Part shown: piece after piece, positions 3,073-46,579 of the stretch | Layout of the letters: every line of letters begins with the position of its first letter | How positions within the stretch are numbered: the stretch's first letter is position 1 | IMG/VR virus record: IMGVR_UViG_3300006224_000014 | Coordinates: 1-47,805 of that record | From: a virus | Length of the DNA: 47,805 bases | Direction: 5' to 3' (one strand) | Notes under the pieces: model-generated | Told to the model about the DNA's origin: nothing | Databases searched by the model: none | What the model saw: only the letters and a program-made list of their open reading frames with translations | Translations under genes and position numbers: made by a program

Positions 3073-3136
3073 GGTTTCTGTCATCTCATCCCGTCTCATC
3101 CCGGCCCGTCTGCCACGCCTTTCCGACAGATTTGCG

Positions 3137-3370
3137 TCAGGCGCGTTGCGCTTTCAACCGCATCAGGTCGTTCGACCAGACGTAGACGCGCTTGCCGTAG
3201 CGCCCGGCCGAAGGTTCGTCGATGGCGGCGAGTTTACCCTCCTCGGCGAAGCGCAGGATGGAGAAGTTGGAGACGCCCATCCAGGCGGCGGCGTCCTTGG
3301 TCCTCACCCAGGTGTCCCGTGGGAGGCTCGGTGCGTTGTCCGAGAGCTCGATGATGCGATATACCTTCAT
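3137..3370 (-). CDS. AlpA/excisionase-like winged-helix DNA-binding protein
   Basis: 77 residues. The segment WVRTKDAAAWMGVSNFSILR followed by GKLAA and a basic wing (GRYGKRVYVW) matches the MerR-like HTH_17 fold of excisionases and AlpA regulators. It lies next to the putative attP and opposite in direction to int, as expected for a recombination directionality factor. The ATG at 3370 is only 6 nt from a TATGAT -10 element, so the message is probably leaderless. A regulator of the nearby terminase operon is the alternative. Confidence 0.75.
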   Translation of the reverse strand: MKVYRIIELSDNAPSLPRDTWVRTKDAAAWMGVSNFSILRFAEEGKLAAIDEPSAGRYGKRVYVWSNDLMRLKAQRA

Positions 3371-3376
3371 GCTCGC

Positions 3377-3386
3377 ATCATAGCAC
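3377..3386 (-). promoter_or_regulatory. Extended -10 of a leaderless promoter
   Basis: On the minus strand the sequence reads GTGCTATGAT, then GCGAGC, then the ATG of the excisionase-like gene. With a start site about 7 nt after the -10 the transcript would begin at or next to the start codon. No clear -35 is seen. Confidence 0.55.
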
Positions 3387-3436
3387 CTCCCGCCCAGGCG
3401 GTCTACCGCCTTGCGCGGGGGCTCACGCTGGGGGGC

Positions 3437-3838
3437 GTGACACAGCCGAAGCGCAACACCGATGGGTTGAAACGTGGGGGCATCACCCCCGAGGCGCAGG
3501 CGAAGGGGGCGGCTGCTGCCGCCAAGGTGCGTGAGGAACAGAACGCCCTGGTAGAGCTGGCCGTCAAGGACCCCTACGCCGCATACGACGAGATGCACGT
3601 CGCCATGACGCGGCACATCCTGAAGCTCCTCAAGGACGAGGCCCGTACCGGCGGCACGCCGGACCGAGCGGTGACTGACCGGCTCCGCGAGTACCGGCAG
3701 CTCACCGACAGCCTGGCCGCGTACCGCGAGGCCAAGGGTGAGGCCGAGGCTGCCCGGCAGTTCTTCGACGCGCTCTCGCGCCGCCTCGCCCAGATGAACA
3801 TGGACGAGACCTCCCCGTCGGGGCCGCCCGATGCCTGA
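3437..3838 (+). CDS. Terminase small subunit (likely)
   Basis: 133 residues. The GTG at 3437 has a G-rich ribosome binding site just upstream and is the best start before the first good codons. The N-terminus is basic (QPKRNTDGLKRGG) and the body helical, with many charged residues. Position directly before terL, with an 8-bp overlap, is the main evidence for a role in DNA recognition at pac/cos. No classical HTH is obvious. Confidence 0.6.
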   Translation: MTQPKRNTDGLKRGGITPEAQAKGAAAAAKVREEQNALVELAVKDPYAAYDEMHVAMTRHILKLLKDEARTGGTPDRAVTDRLREYRQLTDSLAAYREAKGEAEAARQFFDALSRRLAQMNMDETSPSGPPDA

Positions 3839-9373: not shown

Positions 9374-9440
9374 GGGGCGCTCCGGTTTCGACCCGGTGGC
9401 TAGGACGCCGGGGACGGGGGTTCGACTCCCCCGCGCTCCA
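9374..9440 (+). ncRNA. tmRNA-like tRNA-like domain lacking the mRNA-like domain
   Basis: Acceptor strand GGGGCGC (9374-9380) pairs with GCGCTCC (9433-9439), including a G-U at position 3, the alanine identity pair of tRNA-Ala and tmRNA. The 5' part TCCGGTTTCGAC matches the D-loop region of actinobacterial tmRNA. The T arm is GGGGG-TTCGACT-CCCCC (9416-9432). In place of the tag frame and pseudoknots there is only CCCGG (9392-9396), an 11-nt loop and CCGGG (9408-9412). The element starts one base after the pup stop. A3'-terminal CCA is not encoded (ACA follows). It could be a decoy, a relic, or a processed 3' end for pup mRNA. A canonical tRNA is unlikely because no anticodon arm fits. Confidence 0.65.
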
Positions 9441-9699
9441 CAAAATCGGCGACCTTTTCCTCCAGCTCCAGCACGTTCACCTGTGCCCCATGGTCGAGGA
9501 GGTAGGCCGCGTAGGCCGCCCGCCCCTCGATGGGCCACTCCGGGTACGGGATGCCGTAGAAGTCGGCGAACGCCTCTGCCTGCCCGCAGAACGAGCACAC
9601 CTCGGTCTCGTTGTCCGTCCTGCTCACGGCCGGGTACTGGCCGCGGTAGCGGAGCTCCTCCCCGCAGCTAGGGCATCTTCCGTTCCCAGAAGTGGTCAT
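9400..9699 (-). CDS. Zinc-ribbon protein antisense to the tmRNA-like element
   Basis: 99 residues. CPSCGEEL and CSFCGQAE give two CxxC pairs for one zinc site, followed by a helical tail. The last about 13 codons and the stop (9400-9402) run through the antisense of the tmRNA-like element, producing the tail ERGGVEPPSPAS, the kind of sequence that appears when a tRNA T arm is translated backwards. The genuine product may have originally ended elsewhere. Its start overlaps the upstream minus gene by 32 nt. Confidence 0.55.
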   Translation of the reverse strand: MTTSGNGRCPSCGEELRYRGQYPAVSRTDNETEVCSFCGQAEAFADFYGIPYPEWPIEGRAAYAAYLLDHGAQVNVLELEEKVADFVERGGVEPPSPAS

Positions 9700-9955: not shown

Positions 9956-9986
9956 GCGCCTTGACCGCAGGGGGATGGTCGGGCGG
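9955..9986 (+). repeat. 32-bp direct repeat, left copy, with stoperator-like motif b
   Basis: Matches 10997-11028 at 30 of 32 positions. It begins with AGCGCCTTGACC and continues through a run of G and GGATGGTCGGG. The two copies flank the secreted glycoside-hydrolase-like gene exactly, which suggests that gene was inserted, or duplicated with, its regulatory segment. Confidence 0.85.
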
Positions 9987-17792: not shown

Positions 17793-20783
17793 ATGGCAGC
17801 CCCCGTCATCGCCTCCAGGGCAACGACTTCCATCGGGTCGAACACCACGACCCACTCGGTGAACCTGCCCGCGAGCATCGCGGCAGACGACCTCATCCTC
17901 ATCTTCGCTTCCTTCGATGGTGATGGCGTCAGCATCTCCTCCTTCCCCACCGGGTTCGAGTACCTCAACTGGTATCTCACTTCAGGCGCCTCCACCACGT
18001 CCATCGTCGTCCACCGGGGGACGGGCTCCGAGGGGAGCTCCGTGAACTTCACCATCAGCGCGAGCGAGCAGGGCGCCTGGGTGGCTTACCGCATCACGGG
18101 GAACACTTGGCTCGGGGGCACCCCCGCCCCGCTGTTCCTCGCGCCGAACGCGACCGGCTCGGGCACGCAGTTCCCCTCCGGCAGCATCGCGGGCGTGTAC
18201 CCCCTAGGGGACTCTGACGACCTGCTGATTCTCAGCGGCCTCGGCACCGATGACGACGACAACACAACTGGGTGGGGGCCGACCAACTACACGGAGGAGG
18301 ACCTCTGTAAGTCCACGACCGGCTCGGGCACCACGATGGTGCAGGTTGCCTCGCGGGCGTACACGAGCAACACCACGGTCCCCCTCGAACACCCCACAGG
18401 CGCCGACGGGCACACGCTGGCCGCCTCCGAGGAGGGGGCCCTGAAATGGCTGGCGGTGTACGGGGGCAGCGGCTACTCGGGCGGAGCCTGCATCGCCACG
18501 GTGACGACCTTCCAGATGGGGAGTACCACCTACGAGAAGTGGGCGGCGTCGTTCTCGCTCGGCTCGGCCAAGTCCGTCGGCGGGGTCTGGGTCAGGGCTA
18601 CCAAGTACGGGACCCCGACGGACTCCCTCCGGGTGGGCATCGCCAGCGGCAGCTTCGACGGAAGCTACCTGGGGTACGGGGACATCACCGGGTCCTCCCT
18701 GGACATCTACGGCGAGGAGTGGACCTACTTCGCCTTCAGCAGCGCCGTCAGCCTGTCGGCATCCACGACCTACTACCTCCGCGTCGAGAGAACAGGCTCC
18801 CTGAACGACTCCAACCGCTACTCCCTGAGCGGCCAGAGTGTGTACCTCTCCTTCTACGGGGACTGGAGCGAGGGCTACTCCCTGAACGACGGGACCTGGA
18901 CACCCAACGCCAGCGGGCTCCCCTTCGTCCTGGAGTTCTCCTCCGGCACGGCGCACTCCAAGACCCCGACCGACCTCGCAGCCATCGGGGAGGCCCTCTC
19001 CCGGGTCTACGCCGCCGTGCGGACGCCGACCGACCTGGGCGCGCTCGGCGACACCCCGACGCGCGCCTTCGCGGCGGCCCGCGGGGCGACCGACCTGGCG
19101 GCCCTCGCCGAGGACCTGGCCCGCGTGCTCGTCATCGGGAGGACCGCGACTGAAACGTCTGCCTTGCAGGACAACCACTCTCGCGCCTACGACGCGGCGC
19201 GGAGCCCCATCGACCTGACGGCAATCGCTGAGGCCATCGACCGCGCCGCCGCGATGGCCCGCAGCGCAACAGACCTGGCCGCCCTGGACGACGCCCTGAC
19301 CCACGGCCTCGGGATAGCCCGCAGCGCAACCGACCTGGGCGCGCTGGGTGACACCCCAACGCGCGCCCTCGCGGCAACCCGCTCCCCCACAGACCTCGGC
19401 GCCATCGTCGAGGCGACCACCAGGGTGGTGGACTTCGCACGGGCCGTGGCTGACCTCGCGGCGCTGCAAGAGGTTATCTCCCGTGCCGCCGCGATGGCCC
19501 GCGGCGCAACAGACTTGGGCGCGCTGGGTGACACCCCAACGCGCGCCCTCTCGGCGAACCGCGAGCTCACGGACCTCGGCGCCCTCGCCGAGGCGGTCTC
19601 CAGGACGGCGGCGTTCGCCCGAGCCACGACCGACCCCGCGGCGCTGCAAGAGGCCGCGGCACGCACGGCTGCGTTCCAGCGCCTCCTGACCGACCCGAAC
19701 GCTCTGATAGACGCGGTGGAACACGTCCTCTCGGGAGGGAACGAGTGGACCAAGACCGTCACCGACCTCGGTGGCCTGGCCGACCCGCTCTCCAGGGCCG
19801 TAGCGTTCGCCAGGTCTGCCACGGACCTCGGGGCTCTTTCTGACCCCCTCTCCCGCGTCGTCGCCTTCGCCAGGACCTCGACCGAGGCCTCGGCCCTGAC
19901 CGAGAGCATCTTCCGCGCCCACGCTCGGGCCCTCGCTACGGACAACGTGGCCGCCTCCGAGGCCGCCACGAGGGTTGCCGACATGGTTCGCACAGTCTCC
20001 GACGTGTCCGACGCCGTGGAAGCCCTCGCCCGTGGCACCGTTCGCGCCAGGACGGACGCAGCGCCCGTGGACGACACATCCTCCCGGGAGATGGCCCGGA
20101 GCCTTACAGAGGCTCTCAGCGCCTCGGATAGCCTCTCCCGGAGCTGGTCTAGGGTCCTCACGGCAGAGTCCCTGGGCCTGCTCGATGATGCCACGCATGA
20201 GCTCTGGGGCGGAGGCGAGTGGCTCAAGACCGTGACTGACCTCGGGGCGCTGGGCGACAGCGCCTCCAGGGTAGCTGCATGGGCCCGAACACAGGACGAC
20301 ACCGGAGGTCTGGCTGAGACCCTGCTACGGGCTCAGGGCTTCACCCAGACGGAGGACGCCGCGGTCGACGACTCCCTGGCCCGCGCTGGGGCCTGGGCCC
20401 GCAGCGTGGCCGACACGGGCGCGGTGAGCGAGTCCGTGGCGCGGGGCTTCGCCTTCCTGGTCACGGAGGCTGGGGCCCTCGCTGACAACCTGCTCCGGGA
20501 CTACGCCCGGACCCAGCTCGACACCGCTTCCGTCGCAGACTCTCTCACCAGGCACTTCGGGCGCAGCCTGGCCGAGGCTATCGCCGCGGCCGACACCCTG
20601 GAGAAGCTGCTGGAGGGGCCGTTCACGGCCACCGTTTTCCTCACGGCCGAGGTTCTGCGTCAGGCCTATGACGTGGTGGTGGACCCCCGCGAGCTCCTCG
20701 TGGAGGTGCTGGGCCGCTACGGGGTCACCGTGGACCCGCACGAGCTCGACGTACTGCTGGAGGACCCAGAGCACATCCGGTAG
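17793..20783 (+). CDS. Tail fibre-like protein with about 28 helical 20-residue repeats
   Basis: 996 residues. Residues 1-220 are a beta-sandwich-like domain (NTTTHSVNLPASIAADD, GAWVAYRITGNTW). Residues about 225-385 form a second jelly-roll-like domain (VGGVWVRATKYG, TTYYLRVERTGS). From about 390 to 945 a unit of roughly 20 residues repeats, consensus TDLxALxDxxxRxxAxARxx, broken twice by inserts containing GGxEWxKTVTDLG. A beta-rich C-terminal cap follows. Some 60-bp units are nearly identical in DNA (for example 19320-19377 and 19500-19557), so repeat number may vary by recombination. Probably a long rod-like receptor or side fibre. Confidence 0.75.
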   Translation: MAAPVIASRATTSIGSNTTTHSVNLPASIAADDLILIFASFDGDGVSISSFPTGFEYLNWYLTSGASTTSIVVHRGTGSEGSSVNFTISASEQGAWVAYRITGNTWLGGTPAPLFLAPNATGSGTQFPSGSIAGVYPLGDSDDLLILSGLGTDDDDNTTGWGPTNYTEEDLCKSTTGSGTTMVQVASRAYTSNTTVPLEHPTGADGHTLAASEEGALKWLAVYGGSGYSGGACIATVTTFQMGSTTYEKWAASFSLGSAKSVGGVWVRATKYGTPTDSLRVGIASGSFDGSYLGYGDITGSSLDIYGEEWTYFAFSSAVSLSASTTYYLRVERTGSLNDSNRYSLSGQSVYLSFYGDWSEGYSLNDGTWTPNASGLPFVLEFSSGTAHSKTPTDLAAIGEALSRVYAAVRTPTDLGALGDTPTRAFAAARGATDLAALAEDLARVLVIGRTATETSALQDNHSRAYDAARSPIDLTAIAEAIDRAAAMARSATDLAALDDALTHGLGIARSATDLGALGDTPTRALAATRSPTDLGAIVEATTRVVDFARAVADLAALQEVISRAAAMARGATDLGALGDTPTRALSANRELTDLGALAEAVSRTAAFARATTDPAALQEAAARTAAFQRLLTDPNALIDAVEHVLSGGNEWTKTVTDLGGLADPLSRAVAFARSATDLGALSDPLSRVVAFARTSTEASALTESIFRAHARALATDNVAASEAATRVADMVRTVSDVSDAVEALARGTVRARTDAAPVDDTSSREMARSLTEALSASDSLSRSWSRVLTAESLGLLDDATHELWGGGEWLKTVTDLGALGDSASRVAAWARTQDDTGGLAETLLRAQGFTQTEDAAVDDSLARAGAWARSVADTGAVSESVARGFAFLVTEAGALADNLLRDYARTQLDTASVADSLTRHFGRSLAEAIAAADTLEKLLEGPFTATVFLTAEVLRQAYDVVVDPRELLVEVLGRYGVTVDPHELDVLLEDPEHIR

Positions 20784-37753: not shown

Positions 37754-37783
37754 TTGACGGTTTGCGGGCGGGAACGGTACGAT
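37754..37783 (+). promoter_or_regulatory. Repressor promoter with palindromic operator
   Basis: TTGACG (37754-37759), 18-bp spacer, TACGAT (37778-37783). The -10 lies inside the inverted repeat GGTAC-GAT-GTACC (37777-37789), a natural operator for autoregulation by the HTH protein encoded downstream. Confidence 0.65.
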
Positions 37784-37814
37784 GTACCCAGAAAGAGGAC
37801 AAGGAGGGTCGGGA

Positions 37815-38402
37815 ATGACGCAGAAGAAGCTGCTCCCCCGCACACTCGGGGAGGCGCTCCGGCTGCTGATGGTGCGGGCAGACCTAACCGCGGAGAAGCT
37901 TTCCGAGGCAGCGAGTGTGAGCCGTACCGCGCTAGGGGCTTACCTCTCTGACGAGCGGGAGCCGTCTGCCAGCAAGCTGTACCGCATCGTGGACGCGCTG
38001 GCCGTAGCGAACGGCTACGGCACTCAGGAGCTCCTGGCCGAGGTGAACGTGCTCCTGGCTTCGTCACAGAGCACCAACGGCCACCTGGAACACGCTCCCG
38101 CAGAGTGGGTCACCCAGCACATCTGGGCTGAACTGGTCGCCTTGGAGCAGGAGATGTCCTGGCAGGCCTGTGGTGAGTGCGGCGCACACGCCGTGGTGAA
38201 GGTTCCCCTCGTGGTGGCCGGAAACAAGCCCGAGCTCCTGGTCGAGCTCCAGAGGGTCTGCCGTAGCCACCGTCTCGACGCCTCCATCCGCATAGAGGGA
38301 AACGACCTCATCAGAGAGGTCTGGCCGGAGGGGTCTCATGGAACCCCTCCGAGCATGGAGCAGCCCGATTTCACCGTACTCAGGCCCATGGCAGGGGACT
38401 GA
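37815..38402 (+). CDS. XRE-type HTH repressor-like protein
   Basis: 195 residues, ATG 37815 with AAGGAGGG upstream. Residues about 18-70 form an HTH_3 domain (TAEKLSEAASVSRTALGAYL, then SASKLYRIVDALA). The rest is unlike standard repressors and has CGECG followed by a distant Cys/His (CRSHRLD), perhaps one zinc. It lies alone, divergent from the early operon, with its own operator, as expected for the immunity repressor. Its TGA stop is part of the first unit of the downstream tandem array, so it may also bind that array. Confidence 0.75.
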   Translation: MTQKKLLPRTLGEALRLLMVRADLTAEKLSEAASVSRTALGAYLSDEREPSASKLYRIVDALAVANGYGTQELLAEVNVLLASSQSTNGHLEHAPAEWVTQHIWAELVALEQEMSWQACGECGAHAVVKVPLVVAGNKPELLVELQRVCRSHRLDASIRIEGNDLIREVWPEGSHGTPPSMEQPDFTVLRPMAGD

Positions 38403-38880
38403 CGCAGCTTTTTCGCCGTTCTGCGGAAACGGGCAACTTGGCCCGTGGAGCAGACGCAGCTTTCCTGCGGTTCTGCCGAATGGGGCAAAACCGCAAACTG
38501 GCTGACGCAGCTTTCGCGCGGTTCTGCGGAATCGGGCGAAACTGCGAATGGGCTGACGCAGCTCTCAGGCCGTTCTGCCGATTCCGGCCTTCCTGGGAAA
38601 AGGGCTGAGGATGGCGGTATTCCGCCATCTTGGGGCGTTCTCCCTGACGCAACTTTCACGCGGTTCCGTGGGATGGGGCCAAACGCCCAAATCGTCTGAC
38701 GCAGGTTCCCGGCCATTCTGCGGAATGGACCGAAAGGGTCGAATGACCTGACGCGGGATTCCTGCCGTTCTGCGGGATGAGCGAAAAACGCCGGTTCCTC
38801 TGACGCAGGTTTCCTGCGGGTCCGGGGAATGGGCCAATGGACCATTTCGGTCCTGTTGATGAAGCAGCGCAGGCATTCCC
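38399..38880 (+). repeat. Tandem array of about ten units with 51-52 bp period
   Basis: Units start at 38399, 38451, 38502, 38553, 38605 (degenerate, 39 bp), 38644, 38696, 38748, 38800 and 38852 (degenerate). Each begins CTGACGCAG, then a TTTC-rich step and GCGGTTCTGCGGAAT; the last about 20 bases vary. The period equals five helical turns, so all heads face the same side of the DNA. Units 2 and 3 keep a 7-bp inverted repeat at the same internal positions with a T-A to C-G change. No frame stays open through the array. Iteron-like origin, partition site or repressor-titration array are options. Confidence 0.85.
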
Positions 38881-38886
38881 GTAGCT

Positions 38887-38898
38887 CGCCTTGACAGG
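38887..38898 (+). promoter_or_regulatory. Stoperator-like motif, copy g
   Basis: CGCCTTGACAGG, closest match to copy a, directly after the tandem array. Confidence 0.45.
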
Positions 38899-38921
38899 GG
38901 GGTTCATACTCGGGCTGCCTC

Positions 38922-38999
38922 GGGGGCCCGACAGGCCCCCCGCACCGGGGAGCCTCGCCCCCCCCCAGGGGCGGAGCGGCGGGGCAAAAAAGCCCCGCC
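38922..38999. terminator. Cluster of three GC-rich hairpins
   Basis: GGGGGCC/GGCCCCC (38922-38940, 5-nt loop), a GCCCC/GGGGC pair near 38958-38972, and GGCGGGGC-AAAAAA-GCCCCGCC (38978-38999, 8-bp perfect stem). They could end transcription coming through the tandem array or form a structured RNA. Confidence 0.55.
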
Positions 39000-39754
39000 A
39001 GCCGAAGCCCCCTCCGAAGCCCTCCTACACAGGCCGGGCGTTCTTCGTTCCTCACAGGAACGTACCCAAAGACGTTGCTACGCAACAGGCCCCTATTGGG
39101 GCCGTTGCTACGCAAGGGGTAGCAAGGAACTCGTAGCACAACTCGCACATAGCGAGCTTAGGGGTACACATTCAGCTCTATGTGTACAGAACAGCGTGCC
39201 TCAACTCGCAGACGTTGCATAGCAACGCTGCTCGTATGTTCTTTCCTCATTCCCCCCACGCTGAAGAAGAATGGGCCCTTACGGCGCCCTGGGCGCAGGG
39301 CCCAAGCCCCTCGGGGTGTGAGCCGCCCTTCATGTGAAAGAAGTGAAGGAAGTGAAGGGTGTGCATACGCTCAGTCGCCCTGTCCCCCTCCACCTCTGGT
39401 CACACAGAACTACAGCGAGACTGTAGTTTGCGCTGTACTGCAAGGGTTCTAGGTGCAAGGGGAGGGTACTCCCCTGCATGGGGCGCGCACTCTGGGGGCA
39501 GGGGTGTCAAGCCTATTTTCATGCACTCATCACGCACCCACCTCACCTAGTCCTTGCACAACCAGGGCGCACACAAACGTGCAGGTCAGAGGCCTGTGTT
39601 CATGGTCTGTCGCATGGATGTCGCAAGGGGGTACGGGGGTCGGATGGTGTTCGCAACCCCGCGCGGGGGGCGTACCTGGCACGAGGAACCCTCCTCGTGA
39701 AATCGCACAGGCCCCCGGCCTGCATGGATGGATGGATGGATGGAGACAAAAAAA
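39000..39754. other. Non-coding region rich in inverted repeats
   Basis: No convincing gene. It contains three copies of the palindrome GTTGC-N3-GCAA (39074-39086, 39104-39115, 39214-39226), the hairpin GGCCCC-TATT-GGGGCC between the first two (39088-39103), CTCGC/GCGAG (39142-39156), a perfect 8-bp repeat GTACACAT/ATGTGTAC (39164-39187), CTACAG/CTGTAG near 39411, an AGGGGAG/CTCCCCT hairpin (39458-39475), the motif TGCAGGTCAGAGGC (39582-39595) and five ATGG repeats near 39724. Together with the array it looks like an origin or regulatory-RNA region. Confidence 0.5.
39582..39595 (-). promoter_or_regulatory. Second-family motif GCCTCTGACCTGCA, copy 1
   Basis: Minus-strand copy. The flank ACAAACGTG is shared with the copy at 46021. 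Core TGACCTGC is the same as stoperator-like copies d and e. Confidence 0.45.
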
Positions 39755-39778
39755 GGGGCCCCGGAAAACCGGGGCCCC
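39748..39778 (-). terminator. Intrinsic terminator of the small-protein operon
   Basis: A perfect 10-bp stem (GGGGCCCCGG with CCGGGGCCCC, loop AAAA, 39755-39778) followed on the minus strand by seven T (39748-39754). It lies about 40 bp after the last gene of the minus operon (39817). Confidence 0.92.
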
Positions 39779-39816
39779 TAGGGCGCGAGTCGTTTTTCCC
39801 TGCGGGAGGCAGGATT

Positions 39817-40419
39817 TTACGAGGTATCGTGAAGCAGCAGTCGTTCCGCCACCTCCAGCGGCAGGATGACCACCGGCCGCTCGGTCCGCAGCTCGTTGCC
39901 GACGAGCTCGGGGGCCAGCTCCTTCAGCCGGTCCACCCGCGCGGTGTGCGCGGTGAGAAGCACGCTCTCGCGGGCCTCCTTCTTCTCCGCCTGGCGCGCC
40001 GCCTCGGCGCGGCGCAGCTCGGTCGCGCGGCGGTGCTCCTCGCGCGTGGCGAGCCACTCCTCGTAGGTCATCGGGATGATGTTGGACAGCGGGCAGGTCT
40101 CGACGCGCGGCTCGTCCAGGGGCGCGCCGTCCTTGTAGCCCTGGACCCGCCAGGCCCGCACGACCACCGAGCTCACGGGCTCGCCGTAGGCCTTGCCGGA
40201 GAGCGACTTCACCAGGTTCGCGGCCCGCTCCTCGTCGGTGTCGCCCTCCACATGGGAGCGGCTCCCCCACGATGTGACGTACTGGGCCCGCACCGGCGTC
40301 AGGTCCAGGACCTCGACCACCTCCATGTGCCAGGTGTAGCCGCCGTTCGCCACGGTGCTCCGGTTCTGGGGCGCCGACTTCATGTAGCGGACGCCCAGCT
40401 TCAGGTCTGCGCGTTTCAT
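39817..40419 (-). CDS. Hypothetical protein with helical C-terminus
   Basis: 200 residues. N-terminal part beta-rich (YTWHMEVVEVLDLTPVRAQYV), then a long charged helix (EWLATREEHRRATELRRAEAARQAEKKE). No family recognised. Last gene of the operon that starts at 42054. Confidence 0.7.
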   Translation of the reverse strand: MKRADLKLGVRYMKSAPQNRSTVANGGYTWHMEVVEVLDLTPVRAQYVTSWGSRSHVEGDTDEERAANLVKSLSGKAYGEPVSSVVVRAWRVQGYKDGAPLDEPRVETCPLSNIIPMTYEEWLATREEHRRATELRRAEAARQAEKKEARESVLLTAHTARVDRLKELAPELVGNELRTERPVVILPLEVAERLLLHDTS

Positions 40420-42846: not shown

Positions 42847-44262
42847 TCACCTCTCGTGGAATCCTCGTCCGGGCTCGAACGCCCGCTTCCCCTGGGCGAC
42901 GGCCATCGCCGTCTCCTTGTCGGGCACCATCTGGATGCGGCCCGCCTTCATGAGCCGCTTGGTCTCGCGGCGCAGGTCCGCGGTGCTTCCGGCCCCGGTC
43001 ACACCACCGTCCGAGACCCAGAGCTTCATGTCGGCCTTTTGGGCTCCGAGCCAGGCCAGCGCCGGGCCGTCCACGTCGTTCCCGTGGCCGTGGGGCTGGC
43101 ACGCGTACTCGTCGTCGCAGCGTCGGCCGCGGTCCGCCACCACTCGCAGCACTCCGGGCCCGCCGCTGTCATAGGACCCCGAGTAGTACCCGACCGTGGT
43201 GGCCGGGAGGGCTTTCAGGAAGTCGTGCAGCGTTTCGGGCGTCCAGCCCATGCTGCCCGAGCAGTCCACGAGCACCGCGAGCTTTGCGCGGTGGACCTTG
43301 CGGGTGAACATCCGCCCGTCGGTCAGTACCCGGTCCGGGCGCATCGGCAGCACACCCTCATCGCGCTGGACCGTGCGCCGGGCCAGCAGGTTGTTCGGGT
43401 GCTTCAGCCGGGGGTACTCCATGGTCATGACCCCCCAGAGCCCTTCACCGTCGCGGACCTCGGTGATTTTGTCGCCGTCCTTCTCGACCAGGTACTCGCC
43501 CTCCTCGCTCTCCTCGTCGTCGCCCTCGCGGGCGGCCTCGGCCTCCTCGCCCATCCGGGCGAGCGTGGCCTCGTGCTCCGCCTGGGCCTCGGCCAGCTCT
43601 CGCGTGAGCCATTGCGCCAGGTTCAGGGTTTCGGTCTCGAACGTCGGGGTCGGCTTGTCGAGATAGGACCCCGCGGTGCCCATGATGCTCTCCACCTTGC
43701 GGCGCGTTTCCGCCGGGAGCATCCCCGTGGCGACGAGCTCCTGCAAGCCCTCGCGGACCGTCTGCTCATCGCCCGTGAACAGGCTGGCGACGGCCGCCAT
43801 CCCCATGGTTTTGATGTCGCTCGTGAGCGCTTCCACCATCAGGAGCTGCTTGATTTGCTCGGCGCACATGAGCTGCCCGACGCGCTCCCCGGCTTCGATG
43901 TGGCGCCTGTTCAGGCGCGCGTCCTCGCAGACCTGCGTGACCATCTCCTCCAGGCCTTTGGCCTGGGCCCGGTCGGCCCAGTTGAGCGGGGTCCACACGA
44001 CGTGGCCCATCTCGTGCAGCCTGGTTGCGCGCGGGTGGTCCTCGCCGCACGCCGGACACGGCCCCGGCCGCAGGTCCGCCTGCATGATGTGCTCGTGCAG
44101 GCTCGTCGCGGGCTGGGGCGCGTGCTTGATGGTCCACGGCCTCATGCTGTTCCGGCCCCGGAGCGGGATGGCTCCAGGCACCGGCCGCACGGCCGTTTTC
44201 CCCTTGCGGCGCCGCAGCTTCAGCGAGCCCGTCCTTGTCGGCTTCTTCTGCTTCAGCTTCAT
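42847..44262 (-). CDS. Metallopeptidase-like protein with C-terminal VWA domain
   Basis: 471 residues. N-terminal basic segment, a CPACGED knuckle, then RLHEMGHV, an HExxH zincin motif near residue 90, and a helical middle part. From about residue 330 comes a VWA domain with MIDAS motif VDCSGSMG and later Asp motifs (GNDVDGPA, VSDGGVTG). The combination resembles DUF2201/CobT-like VWA partners of MoxR ATPases. Such pairs act as metal-ion-insertion or remodelling chaperones. GGAGG before the ATG; ATGA overlap with a 32-residue membrane gene. Confidence 0.8.
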   Translation of the reverse strand: MKLKQKKPTRTGSLKLRRRKGKTAVRPVPGAIPLRGRNSMRPWTIKHAPQPATSLHEHIMQADLRPGPCPACGEDHPRATRLHEMGHVVWTPLNWADRAQAKGLEEMVTQVCEDARLNRRHIEAGERVGQLMCAEQIKQLLMVEALTSDIKTMGMAAVASLFTGDEQTVREGLQELVATGMLPAETRRKVESIMGTAGSYLDKPTPTFETETLNLAQWLTRELAEAQAEHEATLARMGEEAEAAREGDDEESEEGEYLVEKDGDKITEVRDGEGLWGVMTMEYPRLKHPNNLLARRTVQRDEGVLPMRPDRVLTDGRMFTRKVHRAKLAVLVDCSGSMGWTPETLHDFLKALPATTVGYYSGSYDSGGPGVLRVVADRGRRCDDEYACQPHGHGNDVDGPALAWLGAQKADMKLWVSDGGVTGAGSTADLRRETKRLMKAGRIQMVPDKETAMAVAQGKRAFEPGRGFHER

Positions 44263-44357
44263 CGCTCCTCCTTCCTCCCGTACCTCCACCCGGTGAGCAT
44301 CCCCTTCAGGAACGCCCCCCAGGCCAGACCCCACAGGAACACGCCGACCGTCCTCAC
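44259..44357 (-). CDS. 32-residue membrane peptide between MoxR and VWA genes
   Basis: GTG start overlaps the MoxR stop (GTGA) and the stop overlaps the VWA start (ATGA). Sequence has a hydrophobic helix (VGVFLWGLAWGAFLKGML) and a basic end (RYGRKEER). Double coupling strongly suggests that it is made in step with both proteins and could anchor the complex to the membrane. Confidence 0.6.
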   Translation of the reverse strand: MRTVGVFLWGLAWGAFLKGMLTGWRYGRKEER

Positions 44358-45070
44358 CGCTTGTCCACCTCCTTCGCCAGCCGCACGGCCGTCAGGATTT
44401 CCTCGGCTTGCAGGCCGAAACAGACCTGCGCGGCGAGCTCGTGCTCGACGTGCTCGCGCAGCCGCGCAAACTCCAGGAAGCACCGGAGCGGAACGTGGCC
44501 CGCGTCCCCGTAGGGCACCTCGGCCATGACCTGCGCGATGCGCCGCAGGTCCTCGGGCAGCGACTTGAAGGCCTCCGGGTTCGGCGCCTTCAGCTCCATG
44601 GTGACCGGGAAGCGGTCGGCCAGGGCCTCGGGCAGGTCGTCGGGCTCACCGTTCATGGTGGCCCAGACGGTGAAGTCCGGGTGGGGCGTCAGGATTTCGC
44701 CCGTGGTTCCGAGCACCAGCTTCGCCGTCTCGTGGTCGTCGAGGACCCCGAGCAGGAAGCTAAGAGCGTCGTCACCAGCGCGGTCAATCTCGTCCAGGAC
44801 GAGACGCCCGCCGTTGCGCCACGCGGTCGTGGCCGGGCCGTCCACCCACCGGAACCCGTCCTTCGTTTGGATGAAGTGGCCCCGGAGCTCCACGGCCGCC
44901 AGGTCCGAGTGGACCGCGACCGGGTAGACCTTTTCGGAGTCCTGGACCCCGGCCACGCGGGCCAGGTAGGACTTCCCCGTTCCAGGGGGCCCGTACAGCA
45001 GGATGCGCCGGGCGTAGGGCGAGACCGTGGTGATGGCCTTCCAGAGCTCGGCTCCCTTCAGCGGTTTCAT
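44354..45070 (-). CDS. MoxR-type AAA+ ATPase
   Basis: 238 residues. Walker A YGPPGTGKSYLA (near residue 28), HSDLAAVELRG, Walker B GRLVLDEIDRAG, sensor 1 TVWATMNGE and Arg finger LADRFPV are all present. MoxR ATPases remodel partner complexes, usually through an adjacent VWA protein, as here. A hairpin (45087-45106) lies in its leader. Confidence 0.9.
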   Translation of the reverse strand: MKPLKGAELWKAITTVSPYARRILLYGPPGTGKSYLARVAGVQDSEKVYPVAVHSDLAAVELRGHFIQTKDGFRWVDGPATTAWRNGGRLVLDEIDRAGDDALSFLLGVLDDHETAKLVLGTTGEILTPHPDFTVWATMNGEPDDLPEALADRFPVTMELKAPNPEAFKSLPEDLRRIAQVMAEVPYGDAGHVPLRCFLEFARLREHVEHELAAQVCFGLQAEEILTAVRLAKEVDKR

Positions 45071-45956: not shown

Positions 45957-45986
45957 GATTTGGGGGTTTCGCGCTGGAGCAAAACC

Positions 45987-46143
45987 GCAGGTCAGAGGGG
46001 TTTCGCGTCGGCGCATACAAGCCTCTGACCAGCACAAACGTGTTTGTGCGGCGTTCCGGGCAGCGTGCCCGTACTCCACCCGATTGACCAGGGCGAACAG
46101 AGTTCACCGAATGTTCATCTTCCATCGGCGCAGGTCAGGGGCC
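45987..46143. promoter_or_regulatory. Cluster of second-family motifs with a palindrome
   Basis: Motif copies at 45987-46000 (minus), 46021-46034 (plus) and 46130-46143 (minus), and TTGACCAGGGCG at 46084-46095, similar to copy f. The palindrome GCACAAAC-GT-GTTTGTGC (46032-46049) abuts the second copy. The region separates the leftward and rightward operons, so it is probably a control switch. Confidence 0.5.
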
Positions 46144-46550
46144 TGCCGAAAACGGACAAGTATTTTCCGAGCGCATCGGGGAGGACCCGTTTCGGAGCTC
46201 CTGAGCGGTTTCCGCGCATCTGCCCTGGTCGCTTCTCAGAAACTGAACGCCGTTCAGCCCTCCTGGCGCGGTTTGTTCGGCGGTCATGGTCTCTGGTGCA
46301 AGGCATCTCCCATGTGTCCCCGGGTCATTGACTGCGGGTTGGGCGTGCCCAACCGGGAGTCATGCCCAACCGGCGGTCATCGGTTTCGAGTTGCCGAGAG
46401 GGCAACGAAATCGGGCCCAAAGATGCTGGTCAGACCTATTGACAGTTGCGTTCGAGTGGGGGGTGGGTGATGTCCGGTAGTCATTCGGAATGGTCTTTTC
46501 GGGAAGTCCCGTCCTTTTCGGGCTTCTCGGCCCGTTTCCGGCCAGACTGC
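46144..46550. other. Non-coding control region with operator-like repeats
   Basis: No convincing gene. It holds a palindrome GGTTGGGC-GT-GCCCAACC (46337-46354), whose right half GCCCAACC recurs at 46364-46371, each followed by CGG and GTCAT; a GTTGCC/GGCAAC hairpin near 46390-46406; and TTGACA at 46439 without a well-placed -10. Confidence 0.45.
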
Positions 46551-46579
46551 TTGACGGACCTAGGTTCGAGGCGTAGCCT
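46551..46579 (+). promoter_or_regulatory. Rightward promoter of the clamp/integrase operon
   Basis: TTGACG (46551-46556), 17-bp spacer, TAGCCT (46574-46579). The gene at 46629 follows after about 45 nt of leader. Confidence 0.6.

Follow-up and report, generated by a model that had tools for sequence, protein, structure and literature searches.

A degenerate tandem array behind a phage repressor gene and its tentative reading as structured RNA

A degenerate tandem array was confirmed at positions 38399-38851 of the analysed window, which is 47,805 bp long and represents an entire IMG/VR virus record; the array lies directly behind the gene of a likely immunity repressor. The array is real, its copies are old and diverged, and the core of the repeated unit is constrained. 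We tentatively interpret it as a multivalent array of binding modules, encoded in cis and acting mainly in the form of structured RNA in the 3' UTR of the repressor message, and we lean towards this interpretation over that of a DNA nucleoprotein or replication site, although it is not established.

The array and its place in the phage record

Recognizable phage genes in the record include those for a tyrosine integrase, a terminase, a portal, a major head protein and a tape measure protein. The phage also encodes a WhiB-like protein, which suggests an actinobacterial host, and it is probably a temperate phage of an actinobacterium. The stretches tried gave no DNA match in 50,697 phage records, and matches at the protein level were of only 22-31% identity. 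Scans of IMG/VR with the repressor, the exonuclease, the VWA protein and the terminase returned no match, and a scan with the portal returned two remote ones; neither DNA searches nor searches with any of these proteins gave a usable relative, and nor did DNA-pattern searches of IMG/VR and of phage, plasmid and bacterial sequences. The array is at present a single orphan example, without a match in the phage, plasmid and family collections searched.

The gene upstream of the array (37815-38402, + strand) encodes a Cro/C1-type HTH protein of 195 aa (Pfam HTH_3, 1.1e-7; PHROG transcriptional repressor, 6.7e-6), and on the strength of this match the label of repressor is reasonable. Its start is preceded by the Shine-Dalgarno sequence AAGGAGG, and a consensus scan, in which a match is not proof, placed a putative sigma-70-like promoter (TTGACG-18-TACGAT) at 37754-37783 on the + strand. 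The -10 box is overlaid by a 13-bp palindrome (GGTACGATGTACC, 37776-37788), a candidate autoregulatory operator. Structure prediction for the repressor from the single sequence was poor (pLDDT 53), and the fold search with that model gave no meaningful result.

Eight clear units were found on the + strand at 38399-38450, 38451-38501, 38502-38552, 38553-38604, 38644-38695, 38696-38747, 38748-38799 and 38800-38851. Between the fourth and the fifth lies a degenerate ninth unit (CTGAGGATGG..., 38605-38643), which is in register with unit 4 (+52), is reduced to 39 bp by the loss of about 13 bp, and contains the perfect hairpin GATGGCGG-TATT-CCGCCATC. A tenth unit (38852-38880) is doubtful and would be a remnant at best; the ten units of the original prediction are accordingly eight clear ones, one degenerate and one marginal. 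The repressor stop codon (TGA, 38400-38402) does lie inside the first unit, as had been predicted. The spacing of successive heads along the array is 52, 51, 51, 52, 39, 52, 52 and 52 bp, that is, the predicted 51-52 bp for all steps except the one at 38605. All heads have the same orientation. They had also been expected to lie on one face of the DNA; however, at 10.5 bp per turn, 51-52 bp correspond to 4.9-5.0 turns and 39 bp to 3.7 turns, and therefore the heads are not all on one face. It should be noted that the tight spacing is a weak sign of selection, because the neutral indel rate could also account for it.

The units are composed of a 36-bp conserved core (positions 1-36, consensus CTGACGCAGCTTTCCnGCCGTTCTGCGGAATGGGGC) with 75% identity, followed by a free linker of 15-16 bp with 39% identity (permutation p < 1/20000). 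Invariant across the eight units are C1, GACGC, GC at 17-18, TC at 22-23, G25 and G28, and CTGACGCAG is exact in five of the eight heads, with one mismatch in the other three. The eight units share a mean pairwise identity of 0.64, compared with 0.28 (sd 0.02) for random placements with equal spacing; these placements did not exclude the array, and the few draws near 0.6 presumably fell on or near it. TRF by itself detects 3.7 copies. The units are non-coding: a coding repeat was rejected, considering that the 270-aa antisense ORF at 38336-39148 has no codon-position GC structure (0.65/0.60/0.65) and that the 52-bp steps break the frame.

The array occupies the beginning of a 1.4-kb gap (38403-39816) between convergent transcription units, in which inverted repeats are abundant and no convincing gene was found; its open frames are short and without coding signs, and gene calling reported none of them on the sense strand. 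Two GC-rich hairpins without a U-tract (38921-38942 and 38978-38999, + strand) may mark the end of the repressor transcript. They are followed by the lowest-GC 200 bp of the record (39052-39251, GC 0.53 versus a mean of 0.67), which contain the palindromes GTTGCTACGCAAC, GGCCCCTATTGGGGCC and CGTTGCATAGCAACG; the palindrome cluster as a whole (39046-39260) also includes a near copy of GTTGCTACGCAAC and the pair GTACACAT...ATGTGTAC. On the other side, the neighbouring leftward operon (45982-39817), which holds helicase/primase-type and exonuclease genes, ends at 39817 and is followed by an intrinsic terminator (39754-39779, - strand). An AAA (MoxR/CobS-like) ATPase beside a possible VWA-domain protein (42847-45070, - strand), a pair unusual in a phage, was also observed in the leftward operon.

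Some other features of the record were observed. A 70-nt tmRNA match (9374-9443, + strand; Rfam RF00023, 56 bits) has both ends of the tRNA-like domain and a G3-U70 acceptor, with 7 nt in place of about 310; this RNA is tmRNA-like, lacks the tag reading frame and the pseudoknots, was called as tRNA-Arg by ARAGORN, and may be either the remnant of an attachment site or a small RNA resembling a tRNA. The sequence GCGCCTTGACC is repeated at 9956, 10998, 12539, 15509 and 20784, in or adjoining gaps of the structural region, and its copies are possible late promoter elements. Tandem repeats of 60 bp are present at 19241-19874, within a large ORF (17793-20783). Finally, there is a probable small gene on the minus strand at 3127-3400, whose stop codon, too, sits in CTGACGCAA, and the gene call on the + strand at 3146-3838 is doubtful.

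Folding of the array as RNA

The repressor transcript would begin at about 37790 and, since no sense-strand terminator was found between the repressor start and the array, would continue through the array as its 3' UTR. In each 52-nt unit, the head (CUGACGCA) would then be unpaired and positions 9-36 would form an imperfect hairpin, and the free linkers of 15-16 nt would join the modules to one another. About eight modules of this kind could bind several copies of one protein or RNA, so that the array might serve as a sponge, or as an anchor that governs how stable the repressor message is in the lysogen, or how it is processed.

When the 482 nt of the array were folded as RNA, z was -6.7 for the sense strand and -3.5 for the antisense strand. 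When the record was scanned in pieces of 240 nt, the array's first half ranked at the top for excess folding energy on both strands, which folded about equally well; for the second half, the excess was larger on the sense strand (-11.6 versus -4.6). The alignment of the units gave an RNAalifold hairpin (9-11/34-36, 12-14/28-30 and 16-18/25-27) that ends where the conserved core ends. This consensus hairpin pairs 88.9% of the cells, a value as high being found in 4 of 500 shuffles, and its covariation was reached in 7 of 500. The strongest covarying pair among all columns is formed by columns 10 and 35, which switch jointly from C-G to G-C in units 6-8; these are the sole two columns with such a split, and the switch may be one inherited event.

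On the sense strand, most of the non-Watson-Crick cells of the consensus stem are G-U (12, versus 2 A-C), and the strand-neutral count of wobbles in stems is 1:1. Pairing within a unit is better with its own linker than with a swapped one (p 0.026 on the sense strand and 0.068 on the antisense strand), and own-unit folding is also better than with shuffled linkers (< 1/300 sense, 0.007 antisense). The test of the whole stem (chain) against shuffled columns was not significant (0.255), and RNAalifold against shuffled columns gave 0.067. The strongest hairpins of single units differ in their dyad axes, and the best fold of several units is not the consensus hairpin. No Rfam match was found within the array.

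Other models of the folding fared less well. A rival hairpin (18-23/28-33) showed little or no gain over shuffles, a stem made of head plus linker had little or no support against them, and a crossing (pseudoknot) model paired 87.5% of the cells but did not rise above them. The head was also considered as an antisense seed to ribosome-binding sites; its best match, upstream of 3146, is 8 nt long, but 10% of random 9-mers do equally well, and the call at 3146 is probably a gene on the wrong strand.

Alternative explanations for the array

It is also possible, and only slightly less probable, that the core serves as one long site, or as two neighbouring sites, at which a protein of the phage or the host binds, and that the 1.4-kb gap is a replication origin or another maintenance site, the strands opening at the low-GC stretch. 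This would agree with the location of the non-coding gap between convergent units, with its dense inverted repeats, with the position of the record's 200-bp GC minimum, which is 200-400 bp downstream, with the near-constant unit spacing, and with the helicase/primase-type and exonuclease genes of the adjoining operon. A known analogue is the origin of the PLE satellite, which is non-coding and contains several families of repeats, among them the iteron (PMC7145576). However, the third-position GC skew of same-direction genes passes from +0.061 on the left of the gap to -0.068 on the right, which is the reverse of the change expected at a bidirectional origin whose leading strands are rich in G, GC3 skew being weak evidence that is confounded by gene content. 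In addition, there are no DnaA boxes in the gap, no initiator family was recognized, the helical phase is broken by the 39-bp step, and this explanation does not account for the hairpin excess of the array.

The predicted resemblance to an iteron origin is therefore borne out as far as the repeats beside a low-GC stretch are concerned, but neither by the DnaA boxes nor by GC skew, the check that had been proposed for it, as the GC3 skew at the array changes in a direction opposite to that expected. The negative-to-positive turn of the record by GC3 skew may be nearer to the divergent intergenic region at 45983-46445 than to the array; a tandem repeat of 17 bp was observed there at 46346, as was strong folding at 46321-46560 (z -5.6). 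A partition site, the other maintenance function that had been suggested, was not supported: no match to ParA or ParB was found among the proteins scanned, which included part of the small ORFs, and the phage has an integrase.

A decayed tandem duplication without present function appears unlikely. In such a case, history or a local bias in mutation would account for the conserved words, and template switching at quasi-palindromes for the hairpins. The copies are indeed diverged, with one truncated and one nearly gone, their hairpin axes differ, no relatives were found, and the whole-stem test was not significant. However, uniform decay is not expected to give so sharp a contrast between core and linker (75% versus 39%), which counts against it, as does the invariance of GACGC and seven further core columns across the eight units.

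It is improbable that the array is a set of operators or a titration array, in which the HTH protein would bind asymmetric TGACGCAG-type sites, with one site at the start codon of its own gene and the other eight downstream, acting as decoys or as a transcription roadblock. In the whole record, GGGANTGACGCAG is confined to two sites, the repressor start codon (GGGAATGACGCAG, 37811-37823, + strand) and the stop codon in unit 1 (38395), and the heads all point one way. There is a precedent in mycobacteriophages, where monomeric repressors bind asymmetric 13-bp 'stoperators' oriented with transcription (PMC9283540); the same orientation, the asymmetry of the sites and the similar size of the HTH repressor are points of likeness. 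However, stoperators are 13-bp sites dispersed genome-wide, whereas here a single tandem array of 52-bp units is present, and the start-codon match was noticed after the fact and is given little weight.

The distribution of the core is also unfavourable to a repressor titration array. With a position weight matrix of the core, the eight units score 40-49 bits, while the best score elsewhere, in both promoter regions, the rest of the 1.4-kb gap and the intergenic DNA, is below 0; neither the early promoter regions nor any other intergenic DNA contains the core. Better operator candidates are the palindrome at 37776 and the dispersed GCAGGTCAGAGG motif, both unrelated to the array core. The absence of the core elsewhere and the different palindrome in the repressor promoter argue against a simple repressor-operator array. 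Of the titration array originally predicted, the sole remaining link is the sharing of GGGANTGACGCAG by the start codon and unit 1.

In the same record, an 11-bp motif, GCAGGTCAGAG(G), was observed in three exact copies, all of them intergenic (39581, 42127 and 45987), with near copies at 46023, 46130, 12625 and 46425; it is concentrated in intergenic regions, in both orientations, and looks like a phage operator or stoperator set.

Comparison with known systems

As a structured RNA, the array can be compared with the type III antitoxin RNAs (ToxI, CptI), which are non-coding tandem direct repeats with structured modules of roughly 36-45 nt; the phage PhiTE carries and expands pseudo-ToxI repeats as an RNA decoy (PMC3475682, PMC4627078). 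Like them, the array consists of non-coding tandem structured repeats, its structure being moderately supported. Unlike them, it has a period of 52 nt, free linkers and strongly diverged copies; it is located behind a repressor gene, the upstream gene encoding an HTH protein, and no ORF for a ToxN/CptN/TenpN-type toxin lies directly downstream on the same strand. Because the toxin is absent, a pseudoknot is unsupported and an Rfam match is lacking, the array is not a member of the type III antitoxins, but it could possibly act, by analogy, like a decoy of the PhiTE type. A more specific proposal, which we consider quite improbable, is that of a lysogen-expressed phage RNA derived from the 3' UTR. 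It would consist of about eight hairpin modules, either processed or tethered, would titrate an RNA-binding or defence factor of the host, would be physically coupled to the immunity repressor message and would belong to a family without a described relative. The factor titrated might be, for example, an RNase toxin, as in the case of pseudo-ToxI.

As a DNA site, the array has in common with iteron and other non-coding origins of phages, satellites and plasmids the direct and inverted repeats, the low-GC stretch and the long non-coding gap. It differs from iteron origins in that its unit is much longer than usual iterons, no linked initiator was recognized, and the skew is unsupportive. The extrachromosomal mycobacteriophages Alma and LadyBird have non-coding RNA origins, with a lysogen-expressed non-coding region of about 0.5 kb (PMC7157519). 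The present phage resembles them in having a non-coding region of about 0.5 kb in what appears to be an actinobacterial phage, but Alma and LadyBird have no integrase and an adjacent parABS, whereas this phage does have an integrase, and par genes were not seen in it.

The array may be a new non-coding RNA of phages, or an unusual DNA docking site with long units. Either of the two, if true, would extend the short list of phage non-coding arrays.
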